A stretch of 64,000 nucleotides of DNA from Sinohyriopsis cumingii (lineage: Eukaryota > Mollusca > Bivalvia > Unionida > Unionidae), in contig CM068825.1 of the NCBI GenBank assembly GCA_028554795.2, positions 96,093,451-96,157,450 on the forward strand. Reading direction: 5' to 3'. Every line of letters starts with the position of its first letter. Within the stretch, counting starts at the first letter, position 1. The notes under the pieces were generated by a model, which did no database searches, had not been told where the DNA came from, and worked only from the letters and a program-made list of their open reading frames with translations. Shown here in pieces: positions 19,570-58,343 of this stretch. A program made the translations under genes and the position numbers.

Positions 19570-19574
19570 AAGAT

Positions 19575-37894: not shown

Positions 37895-38337
37895 AGTAGT
37901 TAATGGGGATCTTATAGGGTCTATGGGATTTATCATTACAGACCCCCTTGGGAACATATAGGGTCTATGTAAATTTAACATGGAGAAAAATCGTGGGAAC
38001 ATATAGGGTCTATGGGAATTAACATGGCCAAAAACCCTGGGACAATATAGGGTCTATGTAAATTTAACATGGAGAAAAATCGTGGGAACATATAGGGTCT
38101 ATGGGAATTAACATGGCCAAAAACCCTGGGACAATATAGGGTCTATGTAAATTTAACATGGAGAAAAATCGTGGGAACATATAGGGTCTATGTAAAATTG
38201 AAACAGGGAGGGTCTCTATTTTTTTTAAAAAAAAATAAAATAAAAAAATAAAATAAAAAATAAAATAAAAAAAGGGTAGGCAATTCAAAGACTATCTCTT
38301 TTCGAGAAATATGGCTGGCCCTGAAAAGGGCCTTTGG
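37895..38337 (+). repeat. Left terminal inverted repeat of Polinton B
   Basis: 443 bases, matching the reverse complement of 57901-58343 with no difference I can see. The outer part is a tandem array with the core CATATAGGGTCTATG between TTAACATGG-type spacers; a unit of about 88 bases is repeated. An A/T-rich stretch follows, then the shared inner block with the histone-type stem-loop. Confidence 0.95.
38290..38337 (-). terminator. Histone-type 3' stem-loop with U7-like element (B, left end)
   Basis: Minus strand: CCAAA, GGCCCTTTTCAGGGCC (38332-38317), AGCCA, then TTCTCGAAAAGAGATAG. About 22 bases after the stop of the gene at 38355-38585. Confidence 0.75.
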
Positions 38338-38354
38338 TTTATGTTAATATGCCC

Positions 38355-38585
38355 TTAACATAAAGGGCATTTGCGACATCTTCTTGTCCTCAAACTTCGT
38401 CTTACAGCAGGGCCATACATCAGAGTCCTCTTGAGGCAACCTTGTCTCTCTATATAGACTCTTCTTATCCACAGGCTGCTGCTGGTCCTGTGGACAACGG
38501 TCCACTTGGATCGGACATACATGAGCATGTCCGTCCTGAACATCATTGTTGACACAAGGGTTGAAGATTCAACGTCGGTCCACAT
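38355..38585 (-). CDS. Small basic protein (end gene 1), 76 aa
   Basis: It starts MWTDVESSTLVS at a true ATG and ends CRKCPLC. It is Arg-rich in the C-terminal half (LKRTLMYGPAVRRSLRTRRC). Homologues with clear amino-acid conservation occupy the same place in copies A and C, so it is likely coding despite its size. A TATAAAT box at 38637-38631 (minus strand) lies about 50 bases upstream of the ATG. The transcript would end at the stem-loop inside the inverted repeat. No known domain; the basic character would suit nucleic-acid or protein binding, but this is a guess. Confidence 0.7.
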   Translation of the reverse strand: MWTDVESSTLVSTMMFRTDMLMYVRSKWTVVHRTSSSLWIRRVYIERQGCLKRTLMYGPAVRRSLRTRRCRKCPLC

Positions 38586-38630
38586 GTTGAGGCTCCGAGA
38601 ATAGGTGAATCAATGCACTGAACTGCGCTT

Positions 38631-38756
38631 ATTTATAGGGACAGGTAGGATTGAAACGGATTGAGTTCATTCACCAATCCGAACACGCGTTACAAAATTC
38701 AGCCAGCTGCATCCAATCCGAAGAGAGCAGTCTGTGACGTCACGTAGTCAATATAG
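38631..38756. promoter_or_regulatory. Divergent promoter of left-end genes in B
   Basis: Minus-strand TATAAAT at 38637-38631, CCAAT motifs near 38674 and 38712, CRE TGACGTCA at 38735-38742 and an AATATAG TATA-like box at 38750-38756. The plus-strand box is 54 bases before the ATG at 38804. Confidence 0.65.
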
Positions 38757-38803
38757 ATCTGCTAGCGCTTGTGTGCAGTCAATCTATGCGACAGTGATTC
38801 AAC

Positions 38804-39388
38804 ATGACGGAAACTCAGAAAACGATCCAATGGGGTACACCAGCAGGGGAGACCGCCCAAGGGAACCCGGACTTACTTTCAGAAGAGGTGAATTGGGATT
38901 TTGTGGATTTTCTCTCCTCGCAAGAATTTGTTCCGGAACCTTCGTTACCTTCTTCATTACCGCAAGTGGAGAATTTTAGACAGAGACAGAAAGAAGAATT
39001 GGAGAAATTTATGCAACGACAAAAAGAAGCGGAACAGGCTTTTCTCCTGCAGCAACAGCAACAAGAAGAAGAGGTAAGAAAAAAACAACAGCAACAGCAA
39101 GAAGAAGAAGTAGCAGCAAAGAAACAAGAGGGTGAAAATCAAACGGTCACGGTACTGTTGGACATTTTAGCGGAGTTAAGAAGTCTGAAACAAATGTATC
39201 AGACTTCTTTATCACGACCGAAGAGAATACGACCTTCCCGAGCTAAACACGTCAACCCTGTGACTAAGCCTACCGTACCACCCTTAGTGATTTCAACCCA
39301 ATCATTATCATCATCATCAACATTACGCAGTCCAGAAGTAGGCCTTGGCCGTGGCAAAGGCATAAGGCAGTTAAAATTGATTGCTTAA
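38804..39388 (+). CDS. Gln/Glu-rich coiled-coil protein (end gene 2), 194 aa
   Basis: Residues 1-50 are acidic and hydrophobic (NWDFVDFLSSQEFVPEP), which resembles an activation-domain composition. Residues about 55-110 are a Gln/Glu/Lys coiled coil with Gln runs. Then comes a conserved NQTVTVLLDILAELRSLKQ helix, a basic RPKRIRPSRAK cluster that could be a nuclear signal, and a Ser/Pro tail. Homologues occur in copies A and C. A regulatory role in the nucleus is inference; no named domain is recognised. A CRE and TATA lie upstream and a histone-type stem-loop 22 bases after the stop. Confidence 0.75.
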   Translation: MTETQKTIQWGTPAGETAQGNPDLLSEEVNWDFVDFLSSQEFVPEPSLPSSLPQVENFRQRQKEELEKFMQRQKEAEQAFLLQQQQQEEEVRKKQQQQQEEEVAAKKQEGENQTVTVLLDILAELRSLKQMYQTSLSRPKRIRPSRAKHVNPVTKPTVPPLVISTQSLSSSSTLRSPEVGLGRGKGIRQLKLIA

Positions 39389-39410
39389 ACTCACCCCTAC
39401 ACCAATAAAA

Positions 39411-39455
39411 GGCCCTTTTCAGGGCCACCCACATATCTCGAAAAGAATTACAATT
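39411..39455 (+). terminator. Histone-type 3' stem-loop with U7-like element (B, gene 2)
   Basis: GGCCCTTTTCAGGGCC (39411-39426), ACCCA, then ATCTCGAAAAGAATTAC. 22 bases after the stop at 39388. Confidence 0.8.
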
Positions 39456-39677
39456 TCAATTTGCCAATAACTCAAAAATAAACCCCACCCATTTTACCCT
39501 TATAGTACGTGTCTGTGTATGAGTGCGTGAGTGTAGCTTCTTATTTTAAAATCAAAACTCAAAGACTCTTACCTTATATCATTCATTTATTCTTTTCTCC
39601 ATTTTTTACAATCCAATTCACAATTCACAACTCAACACTTTAATAAAAAGTTCATTGATTTCTTCTTTTCTCCTTGT
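39456..39677. other. Convergent spacer between gene 2 and the zinc-knuckle gene
   Basis: GT-rich and AT-rich sequence without an ORF. On the minus strand an AATAAA lies near 39591-39586, about 90 bases after the zinc-knuckle stop, suggesting ordinary polyadenylation for that gene. Confidence 0.5.
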
Positions 39678-40115
39678 TTAGTCTTTCTGTTTTTTGAATT
39701 TCTTCACCGTCACACTCTTTTCCTCTTCTTCCTCCTCGCTTTCTTCCCTTCTTTTTTTCTCCTGTTTCTTTTTCTTCACCTGTCTTCTTTCTTCCTCAGA
39801 AGAATCCCTCTCTTCTTCTGAAGAATCCTTCTTTTCTTCTGACTCCTCTTGTTTCTTTTTTGGGCAATCTGGAGACCAATGTCCTTTTTCTTTACAATAA
39901 TAACAGGTATCTTGACTTTTGTCTTTTTTAGCTCCTGTTTTTTGACGGTCTGGACACTCTGAAGACCAATGCCCTTTCTTCTGACAGATATAGCAAGTAT
40001 CTTGACTTTTATCTCGAAAGGAAGGAGAGTAGTCCGTAGGATGGTCTGAAGAGAATTTTCTAATGACCCCTCGCAAAGCTCTGACGAAACGTTCCATCTG
40101 GTTAGTCTCTTCCAT
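39678..40115 (-). CDS. CCHC zinc-knuckle protein, about 145 aa
   Basis: The first ATG after the TATA box is at 40115 (MEETNQMERFVRALRG). A longer frame upstream would need a GTG start that lies too close to the TATA. Two Gag-type knuckles follow, CX2CX4HX4C, at residues about 41-54 and 71-84 (CYICQKKGHWSSEC, CYYCKEKGHWSPDC). The C-terminal half is a repeated Ser/Glu stretch and a Lys-rich tail. It would bind single-stranded DNA or RNA. It is divergent from polymerase B, so a role in replication or early expression is plausible. Conserved in A and C, and in old fragment E. Confidence 0.8.
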   Translation of the reverse strand: MEETNQMERFVRALRGVIRKFSSDHPTDYSPSFRDKSQDTCYICQKKGHWSSECPDRQKTGAKKDKSQDTCYYCKEKGHWSPDCPKKKQEESEEKKDSSEEERDSSEEERRQVKKKKQEKKRREESEEEEEEKSVTVKKFKKQKD

Positions 40116-40169
40116 CGTTGTGCTCGGCTTGAGAGTGAAATGAATAGTGAAAGGACAAGACACACACCC

Positions 40170-40202
40170 TTTTATATACGCTGGTCTGCTATGACTATAA
40201 AG
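40170..40202. promoter_or_regulatory. Paired TATA boxes between zinc-knuckle and polymerase genes
   Basis: Minus-strand TATATAAAA at 40178-40170, about 55-60 bases before the zinc-knuckle ATG. Plus-strand TATAAAG at 40196-40202, 54 bases before the polymerase ATG. Confidence 0.65.
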
Positions 40203-40249
40203 TAGTTCATGGTGTTTGAACTTGAGTCATTTGACTTTTTGCTTTCAAG

Positions 40250-43200
40250 ATGAAACGATCCCATTCATTCGAGAAGAAAGAAGAAGAAAGTAAGAGGCAG
40301 AAACGTGATCTATCGCCTCGTACCAGGGCTGAAATATTGACACAAATTCATGTCAGTGATTTTGAAGAGGACATGAGTGAACCAGAATCCGAACCCTCTA
40401 AACCAAGTCCACCACCCTTAGTCAACCCTGAAAAGTACTATTCCATTCGAGAGACGGAAAAGCGTTCCTCTAGAAAATTTAGAACCACGGCTTACAAATA
40501 CACGGTGAAGTTTAAAGATTTCAAGTCCGAAGTACCGTTAGAGAAAGCAGAAGGGTTCATCACCGGAGTGTGGGATTCTCTGCTCACTGCACTCAAGCGA
40601 CAATGTCAACCCAAAGAAGACGATCGCTTGAGACTTTCCATACAACACGACGGTTTGAAATCCCCTGTTTGGATCGAGTTTAGCACCCCTGCAGAATTGA
40701 CCGCTTCCAAAGTCATGGACAAGATTCAACACGTGCAACAATCTAATGACCAGTTTGACATCACCGATGGAAAAGCCACATTGGACATGACCCATGTCTC
40801 TCCTCCTCAAGGGACCGGACGCAAAAAGATGTTATTGGTGAACGACCTTCGCAGCATTAAGCGTAGCCTTGTCCAAATTCACAATCCTCATGACCAGATG
40901 TGTTTAGCCCGTGCCATCGTGGTGGGACGAACCTATGCCAACAAGAACGACACGGTAGAATGGAAAAGAGACTGGGAGAACATTCGACAATCGGACCGAG
41001 CCAAACAACGAAGTGAAGCAGAACTCCTGTTACGACAAGCTGGCCTGTCCAAAGACACACCCTGTGGCATTCCTGAGATGCAAAAATTGCAAGATGCCCT
41101 AGCTCCACGATACACTTTGAAAGTGCACCCTCAAGAAGTGCGCGGGTCTCTGTTGTTTCGAGGGCAAGATTTTAAGGACGGAAAATACATTCATGTTTAT
41201 CATCACGATGACCATTTCGATACCATTACCAGTATCACCGGATTCCTGGGATACGGTTATTACTGTGAGAAATGTGACCATGGTTATAATAATCGAGAGC
41301 AACACAAGCATTGTGGATCGAAATGCTCAGGATGTTTGGCCTCTTCACCCTGTCTGAGCGAAGAACCAGTGCCTTGTTCCACTTGTCTGCGCACGTTTGT
41401 CAGCCCTACCTGTTACCAACAACATCTGAAAACGCAAGGTTCACAGCAGAAATGTGCTTGTCAACTCCTGAGATTGTGCCCTACGTGTGGACAAGGCATA
41501 CGTACCAATAGTACCAAGGCACACGTATGTTCAGGAAAAAAGAAATGTCACATTTGTCACCACATCGTGGACTTGGAACACCAATGTTACGTGCAAAAAT
41601 ACCAACCCCCACCAGAGAAAGAGGACGGTCACAAGAAGAAAGGCAATTTCATCTTTTTCGATTTCGAATGCATGCAAGAGACTGGCATTCACATTCCTAA
41701 TTTCTGCGTGGCTCATCGAGCGTGCGAGAAGTGCATTCAAGAACCTATCTTCAGTCATTGCCCTCACTGCAGCAAGATTCCTGGAGGGCGTGAAAAAATC
41801 TTTCGGTGGCCAAACACGTTAGCCGATTTTGCCCAATGGGTCTTAGACCCCATCGACAAGACGTGGAGCCAAGAGGACATCGGACTTTACGGAGATTGTC
41901 ATCGTCATGCCACGGTGATGGCTCACAATTTCTCCGGATACGATGGACAGTTTCTTCTCAGATACTATACGGAACATGGCACCGAACGTCCTAAAGTGAC
42001 TTTGAACGGAGCCAAAATCATTTTCATGCGAGTGGGACAAGTACAGTTTAAAGATTCGATGAGTTACTTGGCCATGCCTTTGAGTCGAATGCCTAAAACG
42101 TTTGGAATGACAGAAATGGCTAAAGGGTACTTTCCACACTTTTTCAATACGGAAGCCAATCAACACGCCGTTCTACCCCATTTACCTGAGGCTCACTATT
42201 ACGACCCCGACAACATGCGTACCGAACAACGAGAAGCTTTCTACGCTTGGTACCAGGCTCATGCCTCTGACCCCTTCGACTTTCAGGAAGAAATGCTAAA
42301 GTATTGTCGTTCCGACGTGGACATTTTACGGCGTTGCTGTGGAAAATTTCGAGAACTGTTCATGGAACACGGAGGGGTCGATCCTTTGAAAGAAGCTTGC
42401 ACCATTGCCAAAGCGTGTTCCTTAGTGTATCGACAACGATTCATGCCTGAAAACACCGTGGCTGTCATCAGCCCTCAAACGACCCACTATGTCAAGCGTC
42501 AATACTCGGTCAAAGCCCTACGTTGGTTACATTACTTGTGCGACAAGGAAGACAAGTGGATTCAGCATGCCCGCAACGGAGGGGGCGAAAAGACCATCGG
42601 AACGTATTCGGTCGATGGCTGGGACTTAGAAAACCCCAAGATCGTGTACGAGTTTAACGGTTGCTTATTTCACGGATGTCCCGTTTGTTATCCTGACCGT
42701 GGCACTAAAAATCAGTTTTTACAACGAACCATGGAAGACTTGTACCAGGACACTTGTCAGCGGCGCCTAAAGTTGGAACAGGAAGGATACCAAGTGGTGG
42801 AAATGTGGGAACACGAGTACGATCACCGTATGAAAACCGATCCCGAGTTTAAACGCCTCGTGGAAAGTTACCAGTTCATGGACCCGCTGAACCCGAGGGA
42901 TAGTTTGTACGGAGGAAGGACCAATGCCACCTGTTTGCTGTACCAAGCCGACGAAGAGAACGGAGAAGAAATCAAATACTTGGACGTGTGTTCGCTGTAT
43001 CCCTACGTGTGCAAATATTGTCGCTTTCCCGTAGGGCACCCGCAATTGTTCACGGAACACATCGACCTGGTCAACCTTCGACAATACGAAGGCTTGATCA
43101 AGTGTAAAGTTTTGCCTCCCACGAACCTATACCATCCCGTCTTACCTCACCATTGTCAAGGCAAACTGATGTTTCCTTTGTGCCGTACTTGTGCCGAAAC

Positions 43201-44311
43201 GTGCAACCAAGACCAGCCTTGTCATCACAGCCAGGAAGAACGGGCCTTGACGGGAACCTGGGTCAGCATAGAATTGTTCAAAGCTATGGACATGGGATAC
43301 CAACTGTTAGAAGTGTACGAAATTTGCCACTTTCCCAAGACACAACAATACCACAAGGGTGACCCTACTCAGAAAGGCATTTTCGCAGACTACGTGGATG
43401 CCTTTTTGAAACTGAAGCAAGAAGCCAGCGGCTATCCTTCCTGGTGTCACACTCCCGAAGACCAAATACAATTCAAAGAGAAATACTACGAACAAGAAGG
43501 CATCACTTTAGACCACATCGAGAAAAACGAAGGCAGGCGATCGTTTGCCAAAGTGATGTTAAATTGCTTGTGGGGTAAAATGGCACAACGCCCGTGTTTA
43601 CCCAAGACGGAATATTTGACAGAACCTTCCCGCTACTTCCAGATGATTCACGACAAAACCAAATTCATGAAACACGTGGACGTCGTTCGCGAGGATTTGA
43701 TCTTAGTCAATTACGAAGAAGATCTGGACTTTGTACAAGACGACCCCTTTGGAAATGTCATCATTGCGGCTTACGTGACAGCCCATGCTCGCTTAAAATT
43801 GTACGAAGCTTTAGAACTGTTAGAAGAACGCGTCCTGTACTTTGACACGGACAGTTGCATTTACATCCATCACCCGATTCAACATCACCCTGACATCGAA
43901 GGAGACCGTTTAGGAGCCTGGACAGACGAGCATCCCGACGACAAGATTCTAAGTTTCGTCAGTGGCGGTCCCAAAAATTACGGCTACGAATACCGGGACA
44001 AACAAGGAGAAGTGCACACGACGTGCAAAGTGAAAGGACTGACTCTGAATCATCGTACCAGTCGTGTGGTCAACTTTGGGGTATTGAAAGAAGCCTTGCA
44101 ATCGGAAGAGGATGGAAACTTTCAAGTGACCACTTACCAACCGAACAAGATTGTACGTTTACCCACTCACCACATCGTCAGTCGACCTTTGGAAAAAGTT
44201 TATCAAATCGTGTACCAGAAGCGAGTTCGACTTCCCAATCATTTCACCTTACCGTACGGTCACGTCGGTATTGGTCTGTATATAAAAAGGAACCCTAGGC
44301 AAGATCGATAG
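40250..44311 (+). CDS. POLB: Protein-primed family B DNA polymerase
   Basis: 1353 residues, typical for a Polinton polymerase. The N-terminal ~330 residues start with a basic and acidic linker and are family-specific. Residues about 330-460 are very Cys/His-rich (CEKC, CSGC, CPTCGQG, CHICHH). The proofreading exonuclease follows: Exo I DFECM (D471, E473), Exo II HNFSGYD (near 559-566) and Exo III YCRSDVD (near 685-691). Polymerase motifs: A DVCSLYP (D912), B KVMLNCLWGK (K1101) and C DTDS (1199-1202). It would replicate the linear element genome in the nucleus using a terminal protein as primer, as in adenoviruses. The extra Cys-rich block might bind DNA or zinc. It has its own TATA box and carries the TATA of the next gene at its 3' end. 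Confidence 0.97.
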   Translation: MKRSHSFEKKEEESKRQKRDLSPRTRAEILTQIHVSDFEEDMSEPESEPSKPSPPPLVNPEKYYSIRETEKRSSRKFRTTAYKYTVKFKDFKSEVPLEKAEGFITGVWDSLLTALKRQCQPKEDDRLRLSIQHDGLKSPVWIEFSTPAELTASKVMDKIQHVQQSNDQFDITDGKATLDMTHVSPPQGTGRKKMLLVNDLRSIKRSLVQIHNPHDQMCLARAIVVGRTYANKNDTVEWKRDWENIRQSDRAKQRSEAELLLRQAGLSKDTPCGIPEMQKLQDALAPRYTLKVHPQEVRGSLLFRGQDFKDGKYIHVYHHDDHFDTITSITGFLGYGYYCEKCDHGYNNREQHKHCGSKCSGCLASSPCLSEEPVPCSTCLRTFVSPTCYQQHLKTQGSQQKCACQLLRLCPTCGQGIRTNSTKAHVCSGKKKCHICHHIVDLEHQCYVQKYQPPPEKEDGHKKKGNFIFFDFECMQETGIHIPNFCVAHRACEKCIQEPIFSHCPHCSKIPGGREKIFRWPNTLADFAQWVLDPIDKTWSQEDIGLYGDCHRHATVMAHNFSGYDGQFLLRYYTEHGTERPKVTLNGAKIIFMRVGQVQFKDSMSYLAMPLSRMPKTFGMTEMAKGYFPHFFNTEANQHAVLPHLPEAHYYDPDNMRTEQREAFYAWYQAHASDPFDFQEEMLKYCRSDVDILRRCCGKFRELFMEHGGVDPLKEACTIAKACSLVYRQRFMPENTVAVISPQTTHYVKRQYSVKALRWLHYLCDKEDKWIQHARNGGGEKTIGTYSVDGWDLENPKIVYEFNGCLFHGCPVCYPDRGTKNQFLQRTMEDLYQDTCQRRLKLEQEGYQVVEMWEHEYDHRMKTDPEFKRLVESYQFMDPLNPRDSLYGGRTNATCLLYQADEENGEEIKYLDVCSLYPYVCKYCRFPVGHPQLFTEHIDLVNLRQYEGLIKCKVLPPTNLYHPVLPHHCQGKLMFPLCRTCAETCNQDQPCHHSQEERALTGTWVSIELFKAMDMGYQLLEVYEICHFPKTQQYHKGDPTQKGIFADYVDAFLKLKQEASGYPSWCHTPEDQIQFKEKYYEQEGITLDHIEKNEGRRSFAKVMLNCLWGKMAQRPCLPKTEYLTEPSRYFQMIHDKTKFMKHVDVVREDLILVNYEEDLDFVQDDPFGNVIIAAYVTAHARLKLYEALELLEERVLYFDTDSCIYIHHPIQHHPDIEGDRLGAWTDEHPDDKILSFVSGGPKNYGYEYRDKQGEVHTTCKVKGLTLNHRTSRVVNFGVLKEALQSEEDGNFQVTTYQPNKIVRLPTHHIVSRPLEKVYQIVYQKRVRLPNHFTLPYGHVGIGLYIKRNPRQDR
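44279..44288 (+). promoter_or_regulatory. TATA box for the BIR gene
   Basis: TATATAAAAA lies inside the end of the polymerase frame, 65 bases before the ATG at 44344. Confidence 0.6.
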
Positions 44312-44343
44312 TTCATTGTGACTACCAAGACCGAGCAAACAAG

Positions 44344-45087
44344 ATGAATACTTTGAAAGAGACATCGTTCCAGTTTGGGGATTGTAAAAAAGTTGTATCT
44401 TCCTCTAGTGTGACTAATATTGGATGGATAAGACCCAGGCATTGCGACGGAAAATGTCCGGAAGGAAACTGCGATTGTCCATGTGGTTACCATTGTAATT
44501 GCGTCACGGAGTTTGCAGACGAGTGCGATTGTGAGCCTTGCGATGGATACGATGCTGTACGTTGTGACCTGAGCGATGCCGTAAAGCATCATGGGAACTT
44601 TAGTGCCCCTACCCCTATCATGGAAAGTGATGCTGTGCGTGTCAAACCTGTCGGATGCGAAAGTGATGCCGCTCGTCCTCTTGGACATTTTACTGGGTTT
44701 CGTTTTAAAGGGGAATGTTCACCTTCACGTCTACCCCCCTACGGATGTCATCCAGCCTTGAGCAAACACCTACCCATGTCACTCAACCCTCATCGAAACG
44801 AACCTGTGAAAAACGAATATTCGTTTCCTGTGCGTTTGTCGGAATACTGCGACTTTGAAAATCGTCTTCAATCGTTCAAAGGAAAATGGCCAAAGTATCT
44901 GGGAGGACCGACCCCCGAAGAATTAGCCAGAGCCGGATTTTTCTACTTGGGCGAAGGAGATAAAGTCAGGTGCTTCAGTTGCGATGTGACACTTCACCAC
45001 TGGGAACCGCAAGATTCGGCCTACGTAGAACATGCTCGATGGTCACCGAATTGTCATTACTTACCCTTAGTGGGACCGAGACATTGA
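44344..45087 (+). CDS. BIR-domain, IAP-like protein, 247 aa
   Basis: The C-terminal ~80 residues form a BIR domain: FENRLQSFKGKW, LARAGFFYLGEGDKVRCFSC, W220, and zinc ligands C210, C213, H230 and C237 in the order CX2CX16HX6C. The N-terminal ~140 residues are Cys-rich (several CxC and CxxC pairs near 34-66) without a known domain. BIR proteins of baculoviruses and cells block caspases or bind apoptotic regulators. Here it would keep the host cell alive during replication, but no RING domain is seen, so direct ubiquitin ligase activity is not expected. Likely captured from a host. A homologue is present but broken in copy A. Confidence 0.85.
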   Translation: MNTLKETSFQFGDCKKVVSSSSVTNIGWIRPRHCDGKCPEGNCDCPCGYHCNCVTEFADECDCEPCDGYDAVRCDLSDAVKHHGNFSAPTPIMESDAVRVKPVGCESDAARPLGHFTGFRFKGECSPSRLPPYGCHPALSKHLPMSLNPHRNEPVKNEYSFPVRLSEYCDFENRLQSFKGKWPKYLGGPTPEELARAGFFYLGEGDKVRCFSCDVTLHHWEPQDSAYVEHARWSPNCHYLPLVGPRH

Positions 45088-45115
45088 AGTAACTTCTTAC
45101 CATAATAATCTGTTC

Positions 45116-45571
45116 ATGGATACTTTACAAGAGAACATTCGTGCTTTGCCTGTGGAGTTGAGAGAACGCATTTACCGAGAGCTGGTCAAAATACAAGTGA
45201 AACGTAAAGAACAATTGCATCCGTTACGTCACCGGTGTTTGAACCACTGGTACCTGAAGGCTATACAAGGATTGATTCAATTGAAAGTGTTCCATCGGAC
45301 AGACATTGATCAACGATCCTCTAGTTTTCAAAAGGATTGGTTTGGTATGGACGATTCTACCTACATCATTGTAAACGTACTGCATCGAATTCCAGAGGAA
45401 GAGTTAACGAATTACCAACATCTTGAACACAATGTCAACTTAGTGAAAGAGGAAACTTCTGAACGAATTGTCATGTGTAGATTAGTGACTCAACGATTTA
45501 AATTTGACACTGAAGTGAAACCATGTTTGTGCAAAGAGTACATTTCTTGTGTCAGACCAAAGAGGATTTAG
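45116..45571 (+). CDS. F-box-like protein 1, 151 aa
   Basis: The N-terminus (LPVELRERIYRELVKIQ) resembles the start of an F-box, LPxELxxxIxxxL, but the rest of an F-box is not clear. The middle has many aromatic and charged residues, and the C-terminus ends with a Cys-containing LCKEYISCVRPKR. Its first ~45 residues nearly repeat those of the next gene, a tandem duplication with the second halves diverged. F-box proteins recruit targets to SCF ubiquitin ligases; that role is inference. It starts 28 bases after the BIR gene. Confidence 0.6.
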   Translation: MDTLQENIRALPVELRERIYRELVKIQVKRKEQLHPLRHRCLNHWYLKAIQGLIQLKVFHRTDIDQRSSSFQKDWFGMDDSTYIIVNVLHRIPEEELTNYQHLEHNVNLVKEETSERIVMCRLVTQRFKFDTEVKPCLCKEYISCVRPKRI

Positions 45572-45583
45572 TATGACCTATTC

Positions 45584-46102: not shown

Positions 46103-46271
46103 CCATATTCAAACCGTGGATCATTACCATCGATTATTACAAGAACTGTATCCATTCAATTTGGGACGACAAGTGGTGTGTGTCTTAGTGACTTGTTTTT
46201 TGGGATTTCGTTTACCAGCCGATTCTTTGTGGACTCTTTACGATCAGTACTTACCACCTCCATGGCCTTAA
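46047..46271 (+). CDS. Small ORF starting MPRLM, 74 aa, unknown
   Basis: Open in both A and B, with a central hydrophobic segment (VVCVLVTCFLGF). It overlaps both the previous and following frames. No known domain. Could be coding or an overlap artefact. Confidence 0.4.
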   Translation: MPRLMSHVIQQIPWKELNDHIQTVDHYHRLLQELYPFNLGRQVVCVLVTCFLGFRLPADSLWTLYDQYLPPPWP

Positions 46272-46772: not shown

Positions 46773-46785
46773 TAAAAAAACATTC

Positions 46786-46791
46786 AATAAA
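46786..46791 (+). terminator. Poly(A) signal AATAAA after the small ORF cluster
   Basis: AATAAA lies 14 bases after the stop at 46772. The same signal is conserved in A at 12763-12768. Confidence 0.6.
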
Positions 46792-50072: not shown

Positions 50073-50084
50073 CACAGCAAAAAA

Positions 50085-51194: not shown

Positions 51195-51199
51195 CCATC

Positions 51200-51607
51200 A
51201 TGCCCTTTCACACATCAGACGCAGCTACGTCGACCAGTCCTTCTTCCCCTAGTTCTTCTGTGCAAGATTTACAAAAACAACCCTTGTGGGTGTGGTGTGG
51301 AGAACGTGTGCCTAAAACGCAAATCGTCTTTTTCTGCCAAATCTTCGTGGTGTATTGTGTCATCGGGGCAGCCATTGCCAATTTGAGTTTGCAACAAGGA
51401 GACAAACAATTGTGGACCATTTTATTGAGCAGTTGCATCGGTTACCTGCTTCCTAATCCCTCCCTGAAATTCTCTTCCAACGGGAACCTTGTGTCCAGTG
51501 CCAGTGTCAGTCACCAGTCCAACCACAATCAGAACCCCATTTTGGGCGGAGACACGCCTCTGACACCCACTAACCCCTCGGACAGCCACAGAACTCTAGA
51601 ATTATGA
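51200..51607 (+). CDS. Conserved Polinton membrane protein, 135 aa
   Basis: The ATG at 51200 is the first; an in-frame GTG lies upstream. WVWCGERVPKTQIV leads into a hydrophobic helix (FFCQIFVVYCVIGAAIANL), then LWTILLSSCIGYLLPNPSLK forms a second. The tail is Ser/Asn-rich. The helix pair and LLSSCIGYLLP motif recur in many Polintons, from memory. A virion membrane or entry role is possible. Its TGA overlaps the next start (ATGA). Confidence 0.65.
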   Translation: MPFHTSDAATSTSPSSPSSSVQDLQKQPLWVWCGERVPKTQIVFFCQIFVVYCVIGAAIANLSLQQGDKQLWTILLSSCIGYLLPNPSLKFSSNGNLVSSASVSHQSNHNQNPILGGDTPLTPTNPSDSHRTLEL

Positions 51608-52545
51608 GTCACCAAAACCAATTTTACTTAACCTTACCCAGTGACAGTTCCATGGAGGTGTTTCCCCACAACACGTTGTGCTGTTACACGGCCAAATTAC
51701 CTCAAGCCATCCCCTTAGATCACGAAGCCCATTGGGAAGTGGCTTTAGTGGAAATGATTCACCCGACCCAAGTCCACAATGTCCTTAACAATCAAAATAC
51801 TTTTAAGGTGGAAGTTCATGACGAGCAATTGCAAGAGTACTTGGATAAGAATGTCAAATATGACAATAAAACCTATGATGACAAAACTAAAACGACCACC
51901 TACAACTTGTTCATTCTCCCAGGCTATTATTTCAGTGGTCATCATTTGGTCAGCGCCATAGCCTCCAGGTTTAATGGCGTGTTTGGGAAAGCTTTTGAGA
52001 TTGTCAAGAACAAAAGTGTCACCATGGAGTACCACAAAGTAGCTCGTCGCTTCTTGATGAAATTTGAGCGAAGTAAAATCGTGTCCATTCAATTTTGTCA
52101 CGAATTGTTTGACATGTTGGGCGGTGACATGGAGCTGAGGAAGAACTTAGAACGAAAAATACCACCCGAATTACCAGTCATTTTCGACAACGTGACTTTT
52201 GGCCAGTATTTTCGTACCCCGGTAGAACTGAACCAAGGACTGAATTTGATGTTCGTGTACTCCGATGTGGTGGAATACAACGTGGTGGGACACACCTCCG
52301 TACCGTTACTGCGTGTCATTCCTTTCAAAGTGGATTCTGCCACAAACGCTGACGAGGAAGGTGGAAACACTTATCACGTCCACCGCGAATTTGTCCATCC
52401 TCACTATTTGCCGGTCACTAAGTCGTATTTGGACACGGTCAACATTACTATAAAAGGAGATTTGGGACAAAATATTCCATTCACCAACAAAGGAAAAGTC
52501 ACGGTGAAACTCCATTTTCGAAAACGGTTCTCTCACGACTCGTAA
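51604..52545 (+). CDS. Penton-like minor capsid protein, 313 aa
   Basis: Starts FYLTLPSDSSMEVFPHNTL, the typical opening of Polinton minor capsid proteins. Other recognisable blocks are WEVALVEM, GYYFSG and LNLMFVYSDVVEYNVVGHTSVPLLRVIPF, a single jelly-roll penton related to adenovirus penton base. It would form the fivefold vertices. It lies before the major capsid gene, as in related elements. Confidence 0.85.
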   Translation: MSHQNQFYLTLPSDSSMEVFPHNTLCCYTAKLPQAIPLDHEAHWEVALVEMIHPTQVHNVLNNQNTFKVEVHDEQLQEYLDKNVKYDNKTYDDKTKTTTYNLFILPGYYFSGHHLVSAIASRFNGVFGKAFEIVKNKSVTMEYHKVARRFLMKFERSKIVSIQFCHELFDMLGGDMELRKNLERKIPPELPVIFDNVTFGQYFRTPVELNQGLNLMFVYSDVVEYNVVGHTSVPLLRVIPFKVDSATNADEEGGNTYHVHREFVHPHYLPVTKSYLDTVNITIKGDLGQNIPFTNKGKVTVKLHFRKRFSHDS

Positions 52546-52552
52546 GTAAGTC

Positions 52553-52972
52553 ATGTATCCAGTGTACCGAGGGGTGGCTCGACAGCGAGGACACGGTTTA
52601 GGAGACATGTTAAAATCGGCCTTTCGTTCGGTGGTCCCGGTGTTGAAACCGATGGTGACACGCGGATTGCACGCCTTGAAAGATGCGGCACTGACGCAAG
52701 GCAAAGAATTTCTCCAAAATGTCATCATCGACAAACAGAACCCTAAAGAAGCCTTCATGAGGGCAGGCAAAAATGTCTTGCTGCAAACAGGCAAAGACAT
52801 TTTAGGCCGACGAGACACACCTATAAATGCCCTGCAGGCTACCGAGTCAAGCATTCAGCAAGGACAAGGCAGAAAGAGACGACGAAGAAGAAAACACCCT
52901 TTCACCAGACTTCAAGCGAGAAAGGCCAAGAAAAGAAGAACCGTTCGAGACTTAGACGTTTTCGATTATTGA
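52553..52972 (+). CDS. pVI-like basic virion protein, 139 aa
   Basis: RGHGLGDMLKSAFRSVVPVL near the start would form an amphipathic helix, followed by a longer helix (LHALKDAALTQGKEFLQNV) and an Arg/Lys-rich tail (RKRRRRRKHP). The GLG..L...FR pattern is shared by membrane-active virion proteins of Polintons and adenovirus pVI. The role in endosome escape is inference. A TATAAAAGG box lies 104 bases upstream. Confidence 0.65.
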   Translation: MYPVYRGVARQRGHGLGDMLKSAFRSVVPVLKPMVTRGLHALKDAALTQGKEFLQNVIIDKQNPKEAFMRAGKNVLLQTGKDILGRRDTPINALQATESSIQQGQGRKRRRRRKHPFTRLQARKAKKRRTVRDLDVFDY

Positions 52973-52991
52973 AACACAGCAACAACAAAAA

Positions 52992-54302
52992 ATGATGCAC
53001 CGAGAGTCTTGCGCTTGTTCCAAGACGGAACTGGATCTGTTTGCCATGCCCCCCACCATGATGACCATGCAAGAATCCCAATGGGTGGAATTTAATCCCA
53101 TCTCCTCATTGACCGATTCCGCTCCCATCGAGTTTGAAATCAAAGGACAGCCCGAAGATTACATCGATCTGAATAGCAGTTACTTGTACTTGAAAGTCCA
53201 AGTTCTAGATAAGGATGGTGGTGCAGTAGAAGACACTGAGAATATAGCTCCCGTCAACAATTTCATGCATTCCTTGTTCAGCTCAGTGGACTTGTACTTG
53301 AATAACAAACTAGTCAGCAGTAGCATGGATACTTACCCTTACCGTGCCTACCTGGAAAATCTCTTGACGTACGGAACAGATGCCAAGGATACTCATCTCA
53401 ATGCTTGTGTGCTGTGGGAACCTGACGAAGCGAACGAGTTCGACACATTAAAAAAAGACAATAACGGCTTTGAGGAAAGACAAAAGAAAATCCTAGGTGG
53501 AAAGAGTTTAGAACTGATGGATCGTTTGCATTTGGACATGTGGTTGCAAGAGAAATATTTGCTGAACGGTGTCAATGTGCGCCTGAGACTGAATCGCAGC
53601 AGTGCCGCTTTCCATTTGTTGGCTGATCTTGATAAGACTGGCATTCCTAAAAGCACAATCCTACAAGCCAGACTCTACGTACGACGCGTGGAAGTGTTAC
53701 CCAAAGTGGCAAACGACATCAGTCAAACGTTGAGCAGAACGACTGCCAAGTATCCCATCCGACGTGTGGAAGTGAAAACGTTCACCATTTCTGCTGGACT
53801 GCAATCCATAACCGAAGATCATCTGTTTCAAGGACAGTTACCCAAACGTTTGATCCTTGGTATGGTCTCGAATGCAGCCTTCAACGGAGCCTTCAATCGA
53901 AATCCTTTCAACTTTCATCACTTCGACGTAAAGAAAATCGAAGTCAGTCGTGATGGCAAGACCTTGTGTACCCGACCTTTCGAACCTGACTTTAGTGACA
54001 AGAACAAAAATTACTTGAGATCGTACTTGTCCCTGTACGAAGCCACCGGACAGTTAGGAACCAACACCACTCACGGCATTACGTACGACGAATATGACAA
54101 AGGCTATGCTTTGTGGGCTTTCGATTTCACTCCAGACCAAGGCAGCGACGAGGGACATTTCCACCCTATAAAATCTGGCCAGATTCGTGTGGAACTTCAG
54201 TTTGCAAAGTCACTGGACCAGACAGTGAACGTCATCCTGTATGCAGAATTCGATAATACCATAGAAATCAACAGTTTGAGAGAAGTCATTCTAGATTACT
54301 AG
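52992..54302 (+). CDS. Double jelly-roll major capsid protein, 436 aa
   Basis: Recognised by DYIDLNSSYLYLKV near the start of the first jelly roll, FMHSLFSSVDLYLNNKLVS, YPYRAYLENLLTYG, RLHLDMWLQEKYLLNGVNVRLRL and the C-terminal ALWAFDFTPDQGSDEGHF. This is the hexon-like capsid protein of the Polinton/adintovirus lineage and would build the icosahedral shell. Its length is in the usual range for the family. It sits between the pVI-like and Cys-rich genes and has no stem-loop after it. Confidence 0.95.
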   Translation: MMHRESCACSKTELDLFAMPPTMMTMQESQWVEFNPISSLTDSAPIEFEIKGQPEDYIDLNSSYLYLKVQVLDKDGGAVEDTENIAPVNNFMHSLFSSVDLYLNNKLVSSSMDTYPYRAYLENLLTYGTDAKDTHLNACVLWEPDEANEFDTLKKDNNGFEERQKKILGGKSLELMDRLHLDMWLQEKYLLNGVNVRLRLNRSSAAFHLLADLDKTGIPKSTILQARLYVRRVEVLPKVANDISQTLSRTTAKYPIRRVEVKTFTISAGLQSITEDHLFQGQLPKRLILGMVSNAAFNGAFNRNPFNFHHFDVKKIEVSRDGKTLCTRPFEPDFSDKNKNYLRSYLSLYEATGQLGTNTTHGITYDEYDKGYALWAFDFTPDQGSDEGHFHPIKSGQIRVELQFAKSLDQTVNVILYAEFDNTIEINSLREVILDY

Positions 54303-54307
54303 AAACC

Positions 54308-54793
54308 ATGGAAGATTGTTATCCCTCTTTACCTAGCGGAGAAACTTTGGAGATGAAATGTGAGGAGACTGTGGAAAAAGAAGAAGTGATCATGATGAAG
54401 TCGAGATGGCCAGAACAAGAAGCCCATTTAGTCTCCTGTTTTGCCAAACACTTGGTCGACAAAATGACGGAATTGATCAAGAAAAATTGCTATGGATGTC
54501 AAAACGATCATCCCAGTCAAATTCAACACGATAAATGCCTGATGTTAAGTCAAGAAGAAAAATTGGACGAGTATCTGGACGAAGCTTGGAGCCTCATCTC
54601 GAACAAAGACGTGTTGTACCAGTGGTATAAAGACTTGCGTGAACATTCTTGTCCACCATTAACCACTCAAGAGATCCATCGTATCGAAGCTCTCCTGAAT
54701 CAGAGTGAGGAAACAGAACGAATAACCGTTTATTCGTCAGACATTTTCAAGCAAAAAGTCAGGATCGAATTGACGACTTATTATTACCTGTGA
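54308..54793 (+). CDS. Conserved Cys-rich Polinton protein, 161 aa
   Basis: The acidic N-terminus (ECEETVE-like) leads to a helical part with LTELIKKNCYGCQNDHPSQ-type residues near the centre and a C-terminus ending IELTTYYYL. The NCYGC..DHPSQ..H..C pattern is known to me from many Polintons without a function. The Cys/His set may bind zinc. It follows the major capsid gene by 5 bases and precedes the protease, also in old fragment D. Confidence 0.65.
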   Translation: MEDCYPSLPSGETLEMKCEETVEKEEVIMMKSRWPEQEAHLVSCFAKHLVDKMTELIKKNCYGCQNDHPSQIQHDKCLMLSQEEKLDEYLDEAWSLISNKDVLYQWYKDLREHSCPPLTTQEIHRIEALLNQSEETERITVYSSDIFKQKVRIELTTYYYL

Positions 54794-54815
54794 AGAAGAA
54801 AACAAACACAAAACA

Positions 54816-55376
54816 ATGGATACCTGGGAACTTTATTACCTTTTGAACCACAGTTCGTATACGTCTTCTTGGAATCCTGTCGTCTGTGCTAAAGATGAAC
54901 TCCCTCATCGCAAACCTAAAGACCATCAAGCTTACGTGATCAACACGGACGATAGTCATCTCCCAGGAACCCACTGGGTAGCCGTTTACTTTCCTCAAGA
55001 AGGATGTGTGGAATATTTCGATTCGTACGGATTGCCCCCTTTGGAAGACGATATCATCGACTTTATGAGAAGAAATGCTCAAACCACCCGATTCAATAAC
55101 ATGAAATTACAAGGCACAGATTCTTTGGTGTGTGGACAGTACTGTGTGTATTTTCTGCATCATCGCAGCCTGGGCTATTCCTTAGAACATTTAGTGACTC
55201 ATTTTGATCCTCGTTCTTCTGCTAGAAACGATGTGAAAGTAGATCGATGGTTTTGTGACCATTATGCTTATCTTTTGTCTCAAGCTAGAAAACGTAGTGT
55301 CCATCAATGGCCTAATGATTTCCAACAGTGGAAATCACAATTTCATTCACAACGTTGTCAGCCTTGTTTAAAGTAG
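54816..55376 (+). CDS. PRO: Adenain-like cysteine protease
   Basis: 186 residues. The catalytic set fits adenovirus protease (C5/Ulp1 clan): GTHWVAVYF with H53, FDSYG with D69, oxyanion Q99 and CGQYC with C106. Such enzymes cleave capsid precursors during particle maturation. It ends the structural module and is followed by AATAAA at 55487-55492. Confidence 0.93.
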   Translation: MDTWELYYLLNHSSYTSSWNPVVCAKDELPHRKPKDHQAYVINTDDSHLPGTHWVAVYFPQEGCVEYFDSYGLPPLEDDIIDFMRRNAQTTRFNNMKLQGTDSLVCGQYCVYFLHHRSLGYSLEHLVTHFDPRSSARNDVKVDRWFCDHYAYLLSQARKRSVHQWPNDFQQWKSQFHSQRCQPCLK

Positions 55377-55619
55377 ATTGTAATTGAGAAAAAATGTTAG
55401 TGATTTGAAAAAAATAGTTTGATGTTATAGTGTTATATTATTGTTAAAAAATGTTAGAGTTGTTGTTTAGTGTTAACTGATTTTTGAATAAAAAATGTTG
55501 TGTTTTGAAAAAAATGCCTTTGTGGTTTGTTTAGCTATAAGAATGTTGGATTGATGCTTTTTGATTTCTTACTATCCCTCTCATGACACTCACTGAACGT
55601 TGCGGCTCGAAAACCGTGT
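55377..55619 (+). other. Noncoding 3' region after the protease gene
   Basis: AT-rich with AAAAAATGTT phrases. Poly(A) signal AATAAA at 55487-55492 followed by TGTTGTGTTTTG. No stem-loop here. Confidence 0.6.
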
Positions 55620-55660
55620 GGGGGATGTTTTCCTTCACGTCCGCGCTTTCACTATAAGAA
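55620..55660 (+). promoter_or_regulatory. Repeated right-end promoter module (B, 1)
   Basis: GGGGGATGTTTTCCTTCACG is followed by TCCGCGCTTTC and ACTATAAGAA, with TATAAG 60 bases before the ATG at 55713. Confidence 0.7.
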
Positions 55661-55712
55661 CCGGGGTTGTTTCCAGTCTAACCATCCATTGTCGACTCAT
55701 CCTCCTAAGAAG

Positions 55713-56075
55713 ATGTGTTCCAAACTAGCCAAGCTCAACGAAGCCTACGTGAATTTGCATAGGGTCAGACACAGTCTGATACCGAAGCCAGAAGAAATAG
55801 AGAATGTGAGAATGTTAAAAATCACTGAAGACCTGATAGAAGAGCTCTTCAGAGAAGAAGTGAACAGGGAAAAAGAAGAATGGACGGAGAAGTACAGACT
55901 TCAGAGACAGCAGCAACAGCAGCAACAACAGCAACAACAGCAGCAGCAACCTGAACCTGACAGAGGCTTTGTCGATTGTCGTATCGACACCAAAGAGTTC
56001 TTCTTCTCTTTCCGAAGAAGCAGACCTATCGCCAGAAAGTCTATCCTCAGAGGACATCGCATTCTTAGAAACTAA
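55713..56075 (+). CDS. Poly-Gln small protein (right-end gene 1), 120 aa
   Basis: MCSKLAKLNEAYVNLHRVRH at the start, then charged helix (LIEELFREEVNREKEEW), a run of Gln, and a basic C-terminus (FRRSRPIARKSILRGHRILRN) that may enter the nucleus. No known domain. Controlled by the repeated module and followed by a histone-type stem-loop 31 bases after the stop. Confidence 0.65.
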   Translation: MCSKLAKLNEAYVNLHRVRHSLIPKPEEIENVRMLKITEDLIEELFREEVNREKEEWTEKYRLQRQQQQQQQQQQQQQQPEPDRGFVDCRIDTKEFFFSFRRSRPIARKSILRGHRILRN

Positions 56076-56106
56076 AAAAGAATGCCATAGCAAAACAAAA
56101 AAAAAC

Positions 56107-56150
56107 AGCCCTTTTCAGGGCTACCCAATACTCTAGAAAAGAAGTAACGA
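56107..56150 (+). terminator. Histone-type 3' stem-loop (B, right-end gene 1)
   Basis: AGCCCTTTTCAGGGCT (56107-56122), ACCCA, then CTAGAAAAGAAGTAAC. Confidence 0.75.
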
Positions 56151-56574
56151 TCGATTTGCCAATGTGTGAGTAGGTAGAGTAGTGTGAAAATAAACACTAA
56201 CTCTTTTTTAAAAAAATGTGAGGGTATGTGTTTGTGTGTTAGTAATAGTTAAAGTAAGTTAAGGTGAATAGTAGATTAAAATGATATCTTTTCTTAGTGT
56301 TTGAGGTGTATATTTGGGGTTAGATTGGATTGCTTAGAGTATGTAAATAGTCTATTGAAGTGATTTATACAAAATTTTTAGAATAGGAATGAGTAGCATA
56401 AAAAGTGAGTGAGTGTTTCTTTTAGGTCCGCGCTGTTGTTGTTTTTTTGGTCATGATCTAGGTAAGATCAATTTTATGTTTTAGGGGGATGTTTTCCATC
56501 ACGTCCGCGCTTTCACTATAAATTGAAACTCACTGGACAGTCTAGCTACCCTTGTTAACTGATCAACATTAAAA
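56151..56574 (+). promoter_or_regulatory. Noncoding spacer with promoter modules (B, 2)
   Basis: GT-rich sequence, then a half-module GTCCGCGCTGTT and GGTCATGATCTAGGTAAGAT near 56424-56470, then a full module at 56484-56525 with ACTATAAATT. The TATA lies 58 bases before the ATG at 56575. Confidence 0.65.
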
Positions 56575-57045
56575 ATGAGTAGCAGACTTGAAAAACTTTT
56601 TGAACTCCAGATGCACCTGGAATATGCCAGATGCCTCCTGAACGAGCTGGCTGCGGAGGCTCTTGTGGAAGAAGCCAGGATAAAACAGGAGGAGGAAGAG
56701 AGAAAAATGAAAGAAGAGGAGGAAAGAAAGAGAGAGATCAGGGGCCACCCTATGATGATAAAGAAATGTGAGGTGAAGCCCTGGGTGATGGAACCTCCAC
56801 AGGCAATGACTGCACCACAACAGTTACAACCACAACAAGAGGTAATTGTTCATCCTCGAATGAGAAATAGAAGAGAAAGAAGACAAAGGGAAGAAGAAGA
56901 AGTGTTCACTATTCCGCAAACGGAGGAGTGGGATAGTGAAGCCACTCACCCCCCGTCAGCTCTTCCAACAACTTCAGTCAATTGGACCAATGACTGGAGT
57001 AGGCGTTGTGTCTGTGGTGCCAGACCCGGAAGGTGCCACCATTAG
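56575..57045 (+). CDS. Charged coiled-coil protein with Cys/His tail (right-end gene 2), 156 aa
   Basis: MSSRLEKLFELQMHLEYARC at the start, a strong Glu/Lys coiled coil (about 30-60), a Pro/Gln section, an Arg/Glu stretch and the C-terminal CVCGARPGRCHH that may bind metal. The tail is also conserved in copy A. No domain recognised. Same promoter module and stem-loop as its neighbours. Confidence 0.65.
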   Translation: MSSRLEKLFELQMHLEYARCLLNELAAEALVEEARIKQEEEERKMKEEEERKREIRGHPMMIKKCEVKPWVMEPPQAMTAPQQLQPQQEVIVHPRMRNRRERRQREEEEVFTIPQTEEWDSEATHPPSALPTTSVNWTNDWSRRCVCGARPGRCHH

Positions 57046-57071
57046 CCAGGTGCCTCTGAAGTTCCAAAAAC

Positions 57072-57115
57072 AGTCCTTTTCAGGGCTACCCCAATACTCT
57101 AGAAAAGAAATAACA
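57072..57115 (+). terminator. Histone-type 3' stem-loop (B, right-end gene 2)
   Basis: AGTCCTTTTCAGGGCT (57072-57087), with one G-U pair in the RNA stem, then ACCCC and CTAGAAAAGAAATAAC. 26 bases after the stop. Confidence 0.7.
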
Positions 57116-57490
57116 ATCAATTTGCCAATGTGTAGGTAGAGTAGTGTGATTATAAACACTAACTCTTTTTGAAAAAATATGACGGTATGTGTTTGTGTGA
57201 TTGTGTGTTTGTGTTTGTGTTTGTAAGAGCTCAGGTATGTTTGTGTGAATAGTAGATTATGGGTTTCTTTATTGTTTCTTAGCGTATGTGGAGAGTATAG
57301 TTGAGGTTTATATTATATGAAATGAGAAAAGTGGGGATGTTTTCCTTCACGTCCGCGCGTTGTTGGGTCATGATCTAGGTAAGATCAATTTTATGTTTTT
57401 TAGGGGGATGTTTTCCATCACGTCCGCGCTTTCACTATAATAACCCACAGTGTTCGTTGTTCAAACCATTCTGCAAAGAATAAAAAGAAG
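57116..57490 (+). promoter_or_regulatory. Noncoding spacer with two promoter modules (B, 3)
   Basis: A module without TATA at 57333-57360 followed by GGTCATGATCTAGGTAAGAT, and a full module at 57403-57442 with ACTATAATAA. The TATA lies 55 bases before the ATG at 57491. Confidence 0.65.
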
Positions 57491-57877
57491 ATGGCGTCAA
57501 ACCAAATCGACAAAATTCAAACCTTGCAAGACGTTTTAGACAACTTAGGAATAATGGAACAGATGCTATTAAGACTGGTTGAAGACCATTATTCCTATAG
57601 TCCCCATCGTGTGAAGATGGAAATTAATAACTTAAGGAAAGCAAAGGACAAGATTAGTGGTGTCATGAAAGAGATCAAGGAGGAGAAGGAGGATGAAGAG
57701 GAAAGAATAAGAATACGCAAATGGAACGAAAAGATTGAAAAAGAAGAAGAAAATGAAAAGAGGAAGAAAGAAGAGGAGGAAGAGAAGAAGAAAGAAGAGG
57801 AGGAGAAGAAAAAAAAGAAAGAGAAGAAGAGTGTAGGAGATAAAATAAGAACTTGGTGGAGGAAAAGAAGAAATTAG
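57491..57877 (+). CDS. Charged coiled-coil protein in the rightmost slot of Polinton B, 128 aa
   Basis: MASNQIDKIQTLQDVLDNLG begins a helical domain, followed by a Glu/Lys run of 60 residues and a basic Trp-containing end (KIRTWWRKRRN). It is not alignable by eye with the protein in the same slot of copy A (22621-23202) except for general character and basic Trp tail. Function unknown. The stem-loop in the inverted repeat lies 28 bases after the stop. Confidence 0.65.
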   Translation: MASNQIDKIQTLQDVLDNLGIMEQMLLRLVEDHYSYSPHRVKMEINNLRKAKDKISGVMKEIKEEKEDEEERIRIRKWNEKIEKEEENEKRKKEEEEEKKKEEEEKKKKKEKKSVGDKIRTWWRKRRN

Positions 57878-57900
57878 AAGAAGAAGAAGAAGAAGAAAAC

Positions 57901-57945
57901 CCAAAGGCCCTTTTCAGGGCCAGCCATATTTCTCGAAAAGAGATA
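57901..57945 (+). terminator. Histone-type 3' stem-loop with U7-like element (B, right end)
   Basis: CCAAA, GGCCCTTTTCAGGGCC (57906-57921), AGCCA, then TTCTCGAAAAGAGATAG. Confidence 0.8.
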
Positions 57946-58343
57946 GTCTTTGAATTGCCTACCCTTTTTTTATTTTATTTTTTATTTTATTTTTTTATTT
58001 TATTTTTTTTTAAAAAAAATAGAGACCCTCCCTGTTTCAATTTTACATAGACCCTATATGTTCCCACGATTTTTCTCCATGTTAAATTTACATAGACCCT
58101 ATATTGTCCCAGGGTTTTTGGCCATGTTAATTCCCATAGACCCTATATGTTCCCACGATTTTTCTCCATGTTAAATTTACATAGACCCTATATTGTCCCA
58201 GGGTTTTTGGCCATGTTAATTCCCATAGACCCTATATGTTCCCACGATTTTTCTCCATGTTAAATTTACATAGACCCTATATGTTCCCAAGGGGGTCTGT
58301 AATGATAAATCCCATAGACCCTATAAGATCCCCATTAACTACT
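57901..58343 (-). repeat. Right terminal inverted repeat of Polinton B
   Basis: Reverse complement of 37895-38337, no difference noticed over 443 bases. Ends CCATTAACTACT. Confidence 0.95.

Follow-up and report, generated by a model that had tools for sequence, protein, structure and literature searches.

Histone-type mRNA 3' end signals behind the end genes of Polintons in the bivalve Sinohyriopsis cumingii

Polintons with histone-type 3' ends

In metazoans, 3' processing of mRNA through SLBP and the U7 small nuclear ribonucleoprotein (snRNP) is generally regarded as a pathway of histone genes. Here we describe signals of the same type in Polintons of Sinohyriopsis cumingii, in a stretch of 64,000 nucleotides (nt) referred to as the window (assembly GCA_028554795.2, contig CM068825.1, positions 96,093,451 to 96,157,450 of the forward strand), which holds three copies of the element, A, B and C. 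The signals follow two genes at the left end (L1 and L2) and three at the right end (R1, R2 and R3). They resemble the ends of metazoan replication-dependent histone genes in their six-pair stem, their four-base loop and a GAAAAG motif at the spacing of this host's histone genes, and differ in that the proteins of the end genes are not histones. The element is like other Polintons/Mavericks in its type B polymerase, rve integrase with chromodomain, A32-like ATPase, terminal inverted repeats (TIRs) and 6-bp target-site duplication (TSD), and differs from them in having histone-type mRNA ends; we know of no Polinton with such ends. According to the available passages of PMC1924863, the stem-loop histone genes of Caenorhabditis elegans give mRNAs that end 3-6 nt past the hairpin despite a downstream poly(A) signal. 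An animal DNA virus group that borrows from histones is the adomaviruses, some of which have adintovirus-like virion proteins; as described in the accessible parts of PMC11071296, they encode histone-like 'Histoid' proteins, whereas here the regulatory signals are histone-like and the proteins are not.

Upon scanning the window with the Rfam Histone3 model (RF00032) at a permissive threshold (E up to 10), we found 12 matches. Eight of them pass the Rfam gathering threshold of 34 bits, and the remaining four score 32.0, 31.6, 31.1 and 21.9 bits (E 2.7e-5, 3.8e-5, 6e-5 and 0.16, respectively). Five sites belong to copy A, five to copy B and two to copy C, which is cut by the window edge and whose left end is not delimited, and all 12 lie on the sense strand of Polinton end-gene loci. 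The pattern TTTCN6ACCCA occurs nine times in the window against 1.06 expected, a count reached in none of 100 shuffles. We also built a covariance model from the 12 sites; its recovery of those sites (70.6-84.3 bits) is by construction, and the informative part is the score gap below them, with the thirteenth match in the window at 19.2 bits (E 0.032) and no further match at E 0.01 or better. On the Rfam, shuffle and model-gap results, we rejected chance, an Rfam artefact and host histone genes as explanations of the window sites.

These results bear out the main structural claims of the sequence-only reading, which had counted twelve sites over the three copies, each with a six-base stem and a TTTC loop, and had placed the stems of copy B 22-31 nt after the stop codons of five genes. 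The six-pair stem and TTTC loop are present at 12/12 sites, with pairing in 54/54 cells over nine distinct rows, and the spacings measured in copy B are 22, 22, 31, 26 and 28 nt. The exact ACCCA flank, claimed for most sites of copy B, is present there in 2/5 (L2 and R3; R2 has ACCCC, and L1 and R1 have AGCCA) and in 9/12 over the window as a whole. Further downstream, the core GAAAAGA is nearly constant, in contrast to a variable spacer that separates it from the stem; for a second hairpin in this downstream part there is no support, with 63.9% of cells paired. Beyond the R2 and R3 sites, at 56170-56210, at 57135-57170 and in the matching positions after A_R3 and A_R2, lies one more conserved stretch, GTAGAGTAGTGTGA(A/T)NATAAACACTNNCTCTTTT, with a hairpin-like AGTGT...ACACT followed by T-rich sequence.

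Likeness to the histone genes of the host

The histone genes of the host form an 8.3-kb tandem repeat (PF00125 search; 150 of 662 candidates scored), and among the fetched histone loci the H3 stem-loop is present in 30/30 and the H4 stem-loop in 29/30, with H2B and H2A found on one further host stretch. The repeat is spread over many short contigs of genome G000 and is also seen on contig C14 near 13.1 Mb. The textbook histone stem is GGCTCT/AGAGCC; in this host, 4/4 genes (H3, H4, H2A and H2B) have the stem GGCCCT/AGGGCC, which is also that of the element. The distance from stem to GAAAAG is 13 nt in H3, H4 and H2B and 14 nt in H2A, and the stems of the host histone genes begin 27-35 nt past the stop codon, compared with 18-35 nt at 10/12 window sites, those for which an open reading frame (ORF) was found. 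The element model recognises all four host ends (H2B, E 6e-14; H3, 1.7e-11; H2A, 1e-10; H4, about 1e-8), and in Rfam the host ends score 35.9-39.4 bits, values that the element sites span. A further model, built on the letters of the post-stem part without structure, finds H2B (9.1e-6), H3 (9.8e-5) and H2A (0.014); under both element models H2B is the host gene with the best-fitting 3' end. The window sites have TTTC loops only, in contrast to TTTT (H3, H4), TTTC (H2B) and TTTA (H2A) in the host, and because the loops differ, the element 3' end is close to the host version and no plain copy of it. Together with the H2B promoter element described next, this match to the host genes is stronger than a likeness to a textbook consensus.

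Beyond what the sequence-only reading had proposed, we find a match on the promoter side. The right-end genes R1-R3 have a common promoter module that ends in a TATA-like box, and the copy at 57407 in front of B_R1, GATGTTTTCCATCACGTCCGCGCT, recurs with zero mismatches in the promoter of the host H2B gene, 83 nt before the start codon and upstream of the TATA box. When compared with the H2B upstream region, B_R1, B_R2, B_R3, A_R2 and A_R3 score 22-24 (0/200 shuffles each), and the stretch taken for A_R1, which excluded the module copy at 22469, scores 15 (1/200 shuffles). Scores of the right-end modules against the H4 upstream region are weak (11-14, reached in 0 to 18 of 200 shuffles). In copy B, the stretches upstream of L2, PolB (type B DNA polymerase) and L3 gave nothing against the histone upstream regions at 10/200 shuffles or fewer, and that of L1 gave a sole weak score of 13 against H4 (7/200 shuffles). 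The module is found in 0/30 host H3/H4 loci; element loci hold 33 copies, in 21 of the 70 examined. The region upstream of host H2A (positions 969-989 of locus L125) contains an inverted near-copy of the H2B promoter element, alike in 19/20 bases.

A profile search of the 2.9-Gb host assembly with RF00032 returned at least 75 matches over many contigs, a lower bound formed by the best-scoring of 589,472 first-look candidates. Of these we examined 70, and 70/70 look like these Polinton ends, each locus being covered over 58-100% by window sequence in blastn. Restricting the comparison to genes other than the one whose site had fetched the locus, in loci that were still selected for the good site of a neighbour, left 67 rows, in which 51 stem-loops are intact, 15 are altered and recognisable, and one R1 row is a false match to coding sequence. 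By gene, the intact stem-loops number 19/20 for L1, 18/26 for L2, 13/18 for R2 and 1/3 for R1; two of the altered L2 sites have a TTTT loop. Combining the window with the 70 loci, 132 sites pass the pairing and TTTC-loop test, and in these the downstream core is GAAAAG at 13 nt in 112 and at 14 nt in 2, AAAAAG at 13 nt in 11 and at 12 nt in 1, and neither in 6. Both the 67-row and the 132-site counts are uncorrected for shared descent. The features of the window are collected in Table 1.

Table 1. Positions in the window of the Polinton copies, their histone-type 3' ends, the end genes of copy B and the promoter modules (Rfam and site-model scores in bits; aa, amino acids).
Feature	Position	Strand	Details
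Polinton copy A	3713..23533		TSD TTCCTC at 3707-3712 and 23534-23539; TIRs 230 and 94 nt, 96% and 94%
Polinton copy B	37895..58343		TSD ATTTAT at 37889-37894 and 58344-58349; TIR arms 453 nt, 99%
A_L1 histone-type 3' end	3983..4040	-	Left TIR; Rfam 37.9, site model 83.7
A_L2 histone-type 3' end	5115..5172	+	Rfam 37.9, site model 83.7
A_R3 histone-type 3' end	21384..21441	+	Rfam 32 (below gathering), site model 72.3
A_R2 histone-type 3' end	22147..22204	+	Rfam 31.6 (below gathering), site model 76.6
A_R1 histone-type 3' end	23216..23273	+	Right TIR; Rfam 37.9, site model 83.7
B_L1 histone-type 3' end	38280..38337	-	Left TIR, outwards; Rfam 35.6, site model 79.6
B_L2 histone-type 3' end	39406..39463	+	Rfam 40.9, site model 73.5
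B_R3 histone-type 3' end	56102..56159	+	A-U basal pair; Rfam 31.1 (below gathering), site model 74.6
B_R2 histone-type 3' end	57067..57125	+	Weakest; one U-G pair; Rfam 21.9, site model 70.6
B_R1 histone-type 3' end	57901..57958	+	Right TIR, outwards; Rfam 35.6, site model 79.6
C_L1 histone-type 3' end	62108..62165	-	Rfam 40.3, site model 84.3
C_L2 histone-type 3' end	63220..63277	+	Rfam 38.4, site model 83.5
B_L1 gene	38355..38585	-	76 aa
B_L2 gene	38804..39388	+	194 aa
B_R3 gene	55713..56075	+	120 aa
B_R2 gene	56575..57045	+	156 aa
B_R1 gene	57491..57877	+	128 aa, charged
B_R3 promoter module	55624..55646	+	One mismatch to host H2B promoter; then TTTCACTATAA
B_R2 promoter module	56488..56510	+	Common to host H2B promoter
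Extra module copy upstream of R1	57336..57358	+	No TATA box behind
B_R1 promoter module	57407..57430	+	24 bases identical to host H2B promoter

Proposed expression of the end genes and its alternatives

Given the stem-loops, their flanks, the downstream element, the spacing, the match to the host histone genes and to the H2B promoter, and the recurrence over many copies, we consider it likely that L1, L2 and R1-R3 are expressed through histone-type 3' processing. SLBP would bind the stem-loop of the end-gene pre-mRNAs, the host U7 snRNP would bind the downstream element containing GAAAAG, and the pre-mRNA would be cut a few bases past the stem to give an mRNA without poly(A); both the cleavage and the U7 pairing are steps that we infer. 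In the accessible passages of PMC9756948, U7 processing is described in histone locus bodies and in S phase. Because the histone 3' machinery works in S phase, the end-gene products would be made during host DNA copying, and the H2B promoter element of R1-R3 may time transcription to S phase as well; for S-phase timing taken alone our confidence is lower, somewhat better than even. For the core genes, conventional poly(A) signals would serve. At the right end, the H2B-type promoter, short gene, stem-loop and U7 element may together amount to a nearly complete histone-gene disguise, of which the left-end genes would have the 3' half, with transcription and processing in the histone locus body during S phase and no histone encoded, a wider proposal towards which we lean slightly. 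The earlier proposal that the element taps the histone 3' pathway is supported by the same stem, core and spacing in the host histone genes and extended by the H2B promoter element, and this likeness to the host is better evidence, though indirect, than the U7 pairing test.

Upon examining poly(A) signals, we observe that genes with stem-loops and genes with poly(A) signals separate well, though not strictly. No AATAAA or ATTAAA lies between gene and element end for L1 and R1 of copies A and B, and 107 of the 132 element sites have neither hexamer within 200 nt; in this the element sites differ from the stem-loop genes of C. elegans, which are themselves histone genes (available passages of PMC1924863). 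Among the other genes, AATAAA is present at 55487 for the candidate protease gene of copy B, L3 of copy B has ordinary poly(A) hexamers downstream, and none is found for L3 of copy A in the stretch searched.

Several observations weigh against histone-type processing of the end genes. A hexamer follows soon after the B_L2 and B_R3 sites, C_L1 has one ATTAAA, and, as a raw count, one of the two hexamers lies within 200 nt of 25 of the 132 sites; because of these hexamers, the end genes may also use poly(A). Some human genes are described as using a poly(A) signal that overlaps or follows the histone element (PMC9756948, in the parts accessible). Pairing energy with a human U7 5' end, taken in place of that of the host, beats shuffles at 0/12 sites, with 10-63% of shuffles as low. 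Additionally, the post-stem model does not find H4, the L1 and L2 promoters of copy B do not match H2B, the 70 loci entered the sample through their stem-loop scores, and the stem-loop is altered in the 15 of 67 rows mentioned above.

The alternative that survives best holds that the histone-type 3' end is genuine and functional, but serves purposes other than S-phase timing: a compact 3' end for short genes, export and translation without poly(A), and a terminator that fits the TIR. Since this and our preferred explanation have the processing step in common, the odds of the two overlap. The L1 and R1 sites lie within the TIRs and face outwards, and since L1 (minus strand) and R1 both end there, each TIR brings an outward-facing 3' end; this placement, the lack of poly(A) hexamers after these sites in copies A and B, and the lack of the H2B promoter element at L1 and L2 all favour it. 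The H2B promoter element of R1-R3 is left unexplained by compactness at the 3' end, and we regard this alternative as possible and on the unlikely side.

Less probable, and in our judgement improbable, is the capture of a histone gene fragment that has been kept alike by copying among the ends (TIR homogenisation) and not by function. The B_L1 and B_R1 sites, both within TIRs, are identical, and the promoter module common to the right-end genes matches H2B, as such an origin would have it; however, the L2, R2 and R3 sites lie outside the TIRs, and the basal stem pair, G-C in L1, L2 and R1, is A-U in R2 and R3, with both sides changed. Furthermore, the 200 nt beyond the L1, R1 and R3 sites have diverged to 53-60% between copies (70-80% for L2), yet stem-loop and core are kept. 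Selection on the stem-loop, which counts for our preferred explanation, is seen in R1, where copies A and B are 55% alike over the 200 bp upstream of the site and agree at 25/26 positions of the stem-loop and flanks; for R2 the figures are 58% and 23/26.

The abundance of sites in the genome (at least 75) would suit a decoy, in which many histone-type 3' ends titrate SLBP or the U7 snRNP and lower the histone supply of the host. A sponge needs no conserved proteins, however, and the sites follow ORFs, the promoter modules of R1-R3 bear TATA boxes and L1 is under purifying selection (dN/dS, the ratio of nonsynonymous to synonymous divergence, 0.10-0.15 at dS 0.9-1.3 across three pairs of copies), all of which makes a decoy very improbable. 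Despite that dS in the gene, the L1 stem-loops are identical at 25-26 of 26 positions between copies, a further sign of selection in favour of our preferred explanation. In the comparison of L1 (38355-38585, 62184-62414 and 4065-4298), the dS of 0.9-1.3 stands against 0.14 for the adjoining L2 between copies B and C; the element ends may be mosaics. That the hairpins act as DNA, for instance in end replication or packaging, is hardly credible: two sites per copy do lie in TIRs, but 3/5 lie outside them, every site follows a gene on its sense strand, the flanks and downstream element correspond to signals of histone RNA, and the second hairpin is unsupported.

The elements, their proteins and related systems

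Copies A and B are Polintons, as seen from their TIRs and 6-bp TSDs, the latter read by eye from the element ends, and from the PolB, integrase and ATPase domains of copy B. These comprise a viral/organellar-type DNA polymerase B (PF03175, E 7.4e-42), an rve integrase (PF00665, E 2e-12) with a Chromo domain (E 1.2e-7) and an A32-like packaging ATPase of FtsK/A32 type (PF04665, E 7.7e-8, above the cut-off). A match to the adenovirus-type cysteine protease is weak (PF00770, E 0.0072, 16.5 bits against a cut-off of 21.3). A double jelly-roll capsid candidate at 52992-54302 has no Pfam match, a sequence search of the PDB at E 1 gave no relative, and its predicted structure (pLDDT, predicted local distance difference test, 37.8) was too poor for a structure search. 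Copy B further encodes a BIR (inhibitor of apoptosis) domain protein at 44344-45087 (E 1.9e-23), and gene L3 (39678-40115, minus strand), convergent with L2, encodes two CCHC zinc knuckles (PF00098).

The end-gene proteins are not histones. No histone match appeared in the Pfam search of the element proteins, none of the five end proteins has a Pfam match above the curated cut-off, and in blastp of the five copy B proteins against host H3, H4, H2A and H2B the sole match is R2 to H2A at E 0.71. We took three other candidates as coiled-coil or low-complexity likeness and rejected them: R1 as TAF4 (E 8.3e-4) and L2 as DUF5089 (E 0.003), neither of which reaches the Pfam cut-off, and R3 as a head-tail adaptor PHROG (E 1.2e-4). 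The predicted structure of L1 (pLDDT 48.7) was too poor for a structure search. In copy A, the L2, R2 and R3 frames contain internal stops, and no ORF of more than 50 codons ends within 80 nt upstream of the A_L2 and A_R2 sites.

Turning to viral sequences, the pattern with ACCCA was found in 0 contigs of IMG/VR. A looser pattern with a downstream AAAGA gave 24 contigs, which we took as chance (ACC flank in 0/24, all six pairs in 6/24); Rfam at the gathering score found none on 10 of these 24, and the element model gave one weak match elsewhere (E 0.11). The PolB and capsid-candidate queries returned no IMG/VR relatives; PolB has one match in a phage record, 44.6% over 7% of the query. Our literature search, with most subscription papers and preprints outside its reach, returned no report of a Polinton/Maverick/adintovirus, virus or transposable element with histone-type mRNA ends. 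Histone stem-loops are not a subject of the accessible passages of PMC11071296 or of those of PMC7551171, which are unrelated, and the words histone and stem-loop are absent from the main text of PMC4028283.

Overall, if the end genes do use SLBP and U7, we know of no earlier mobile element or virus shown to route its own mRNAs through the pathway, and it would mean that the pathway can be taken over by non-histone genes. The element would also serve as a natural experiment on the sequences sufficient for SLBP/U7 processing, and histone-type ends provide a sequence handle for similar cases in other animal genomes. A DNA element could in this way couple the expression of some of its genes to the DNA replication of its host.

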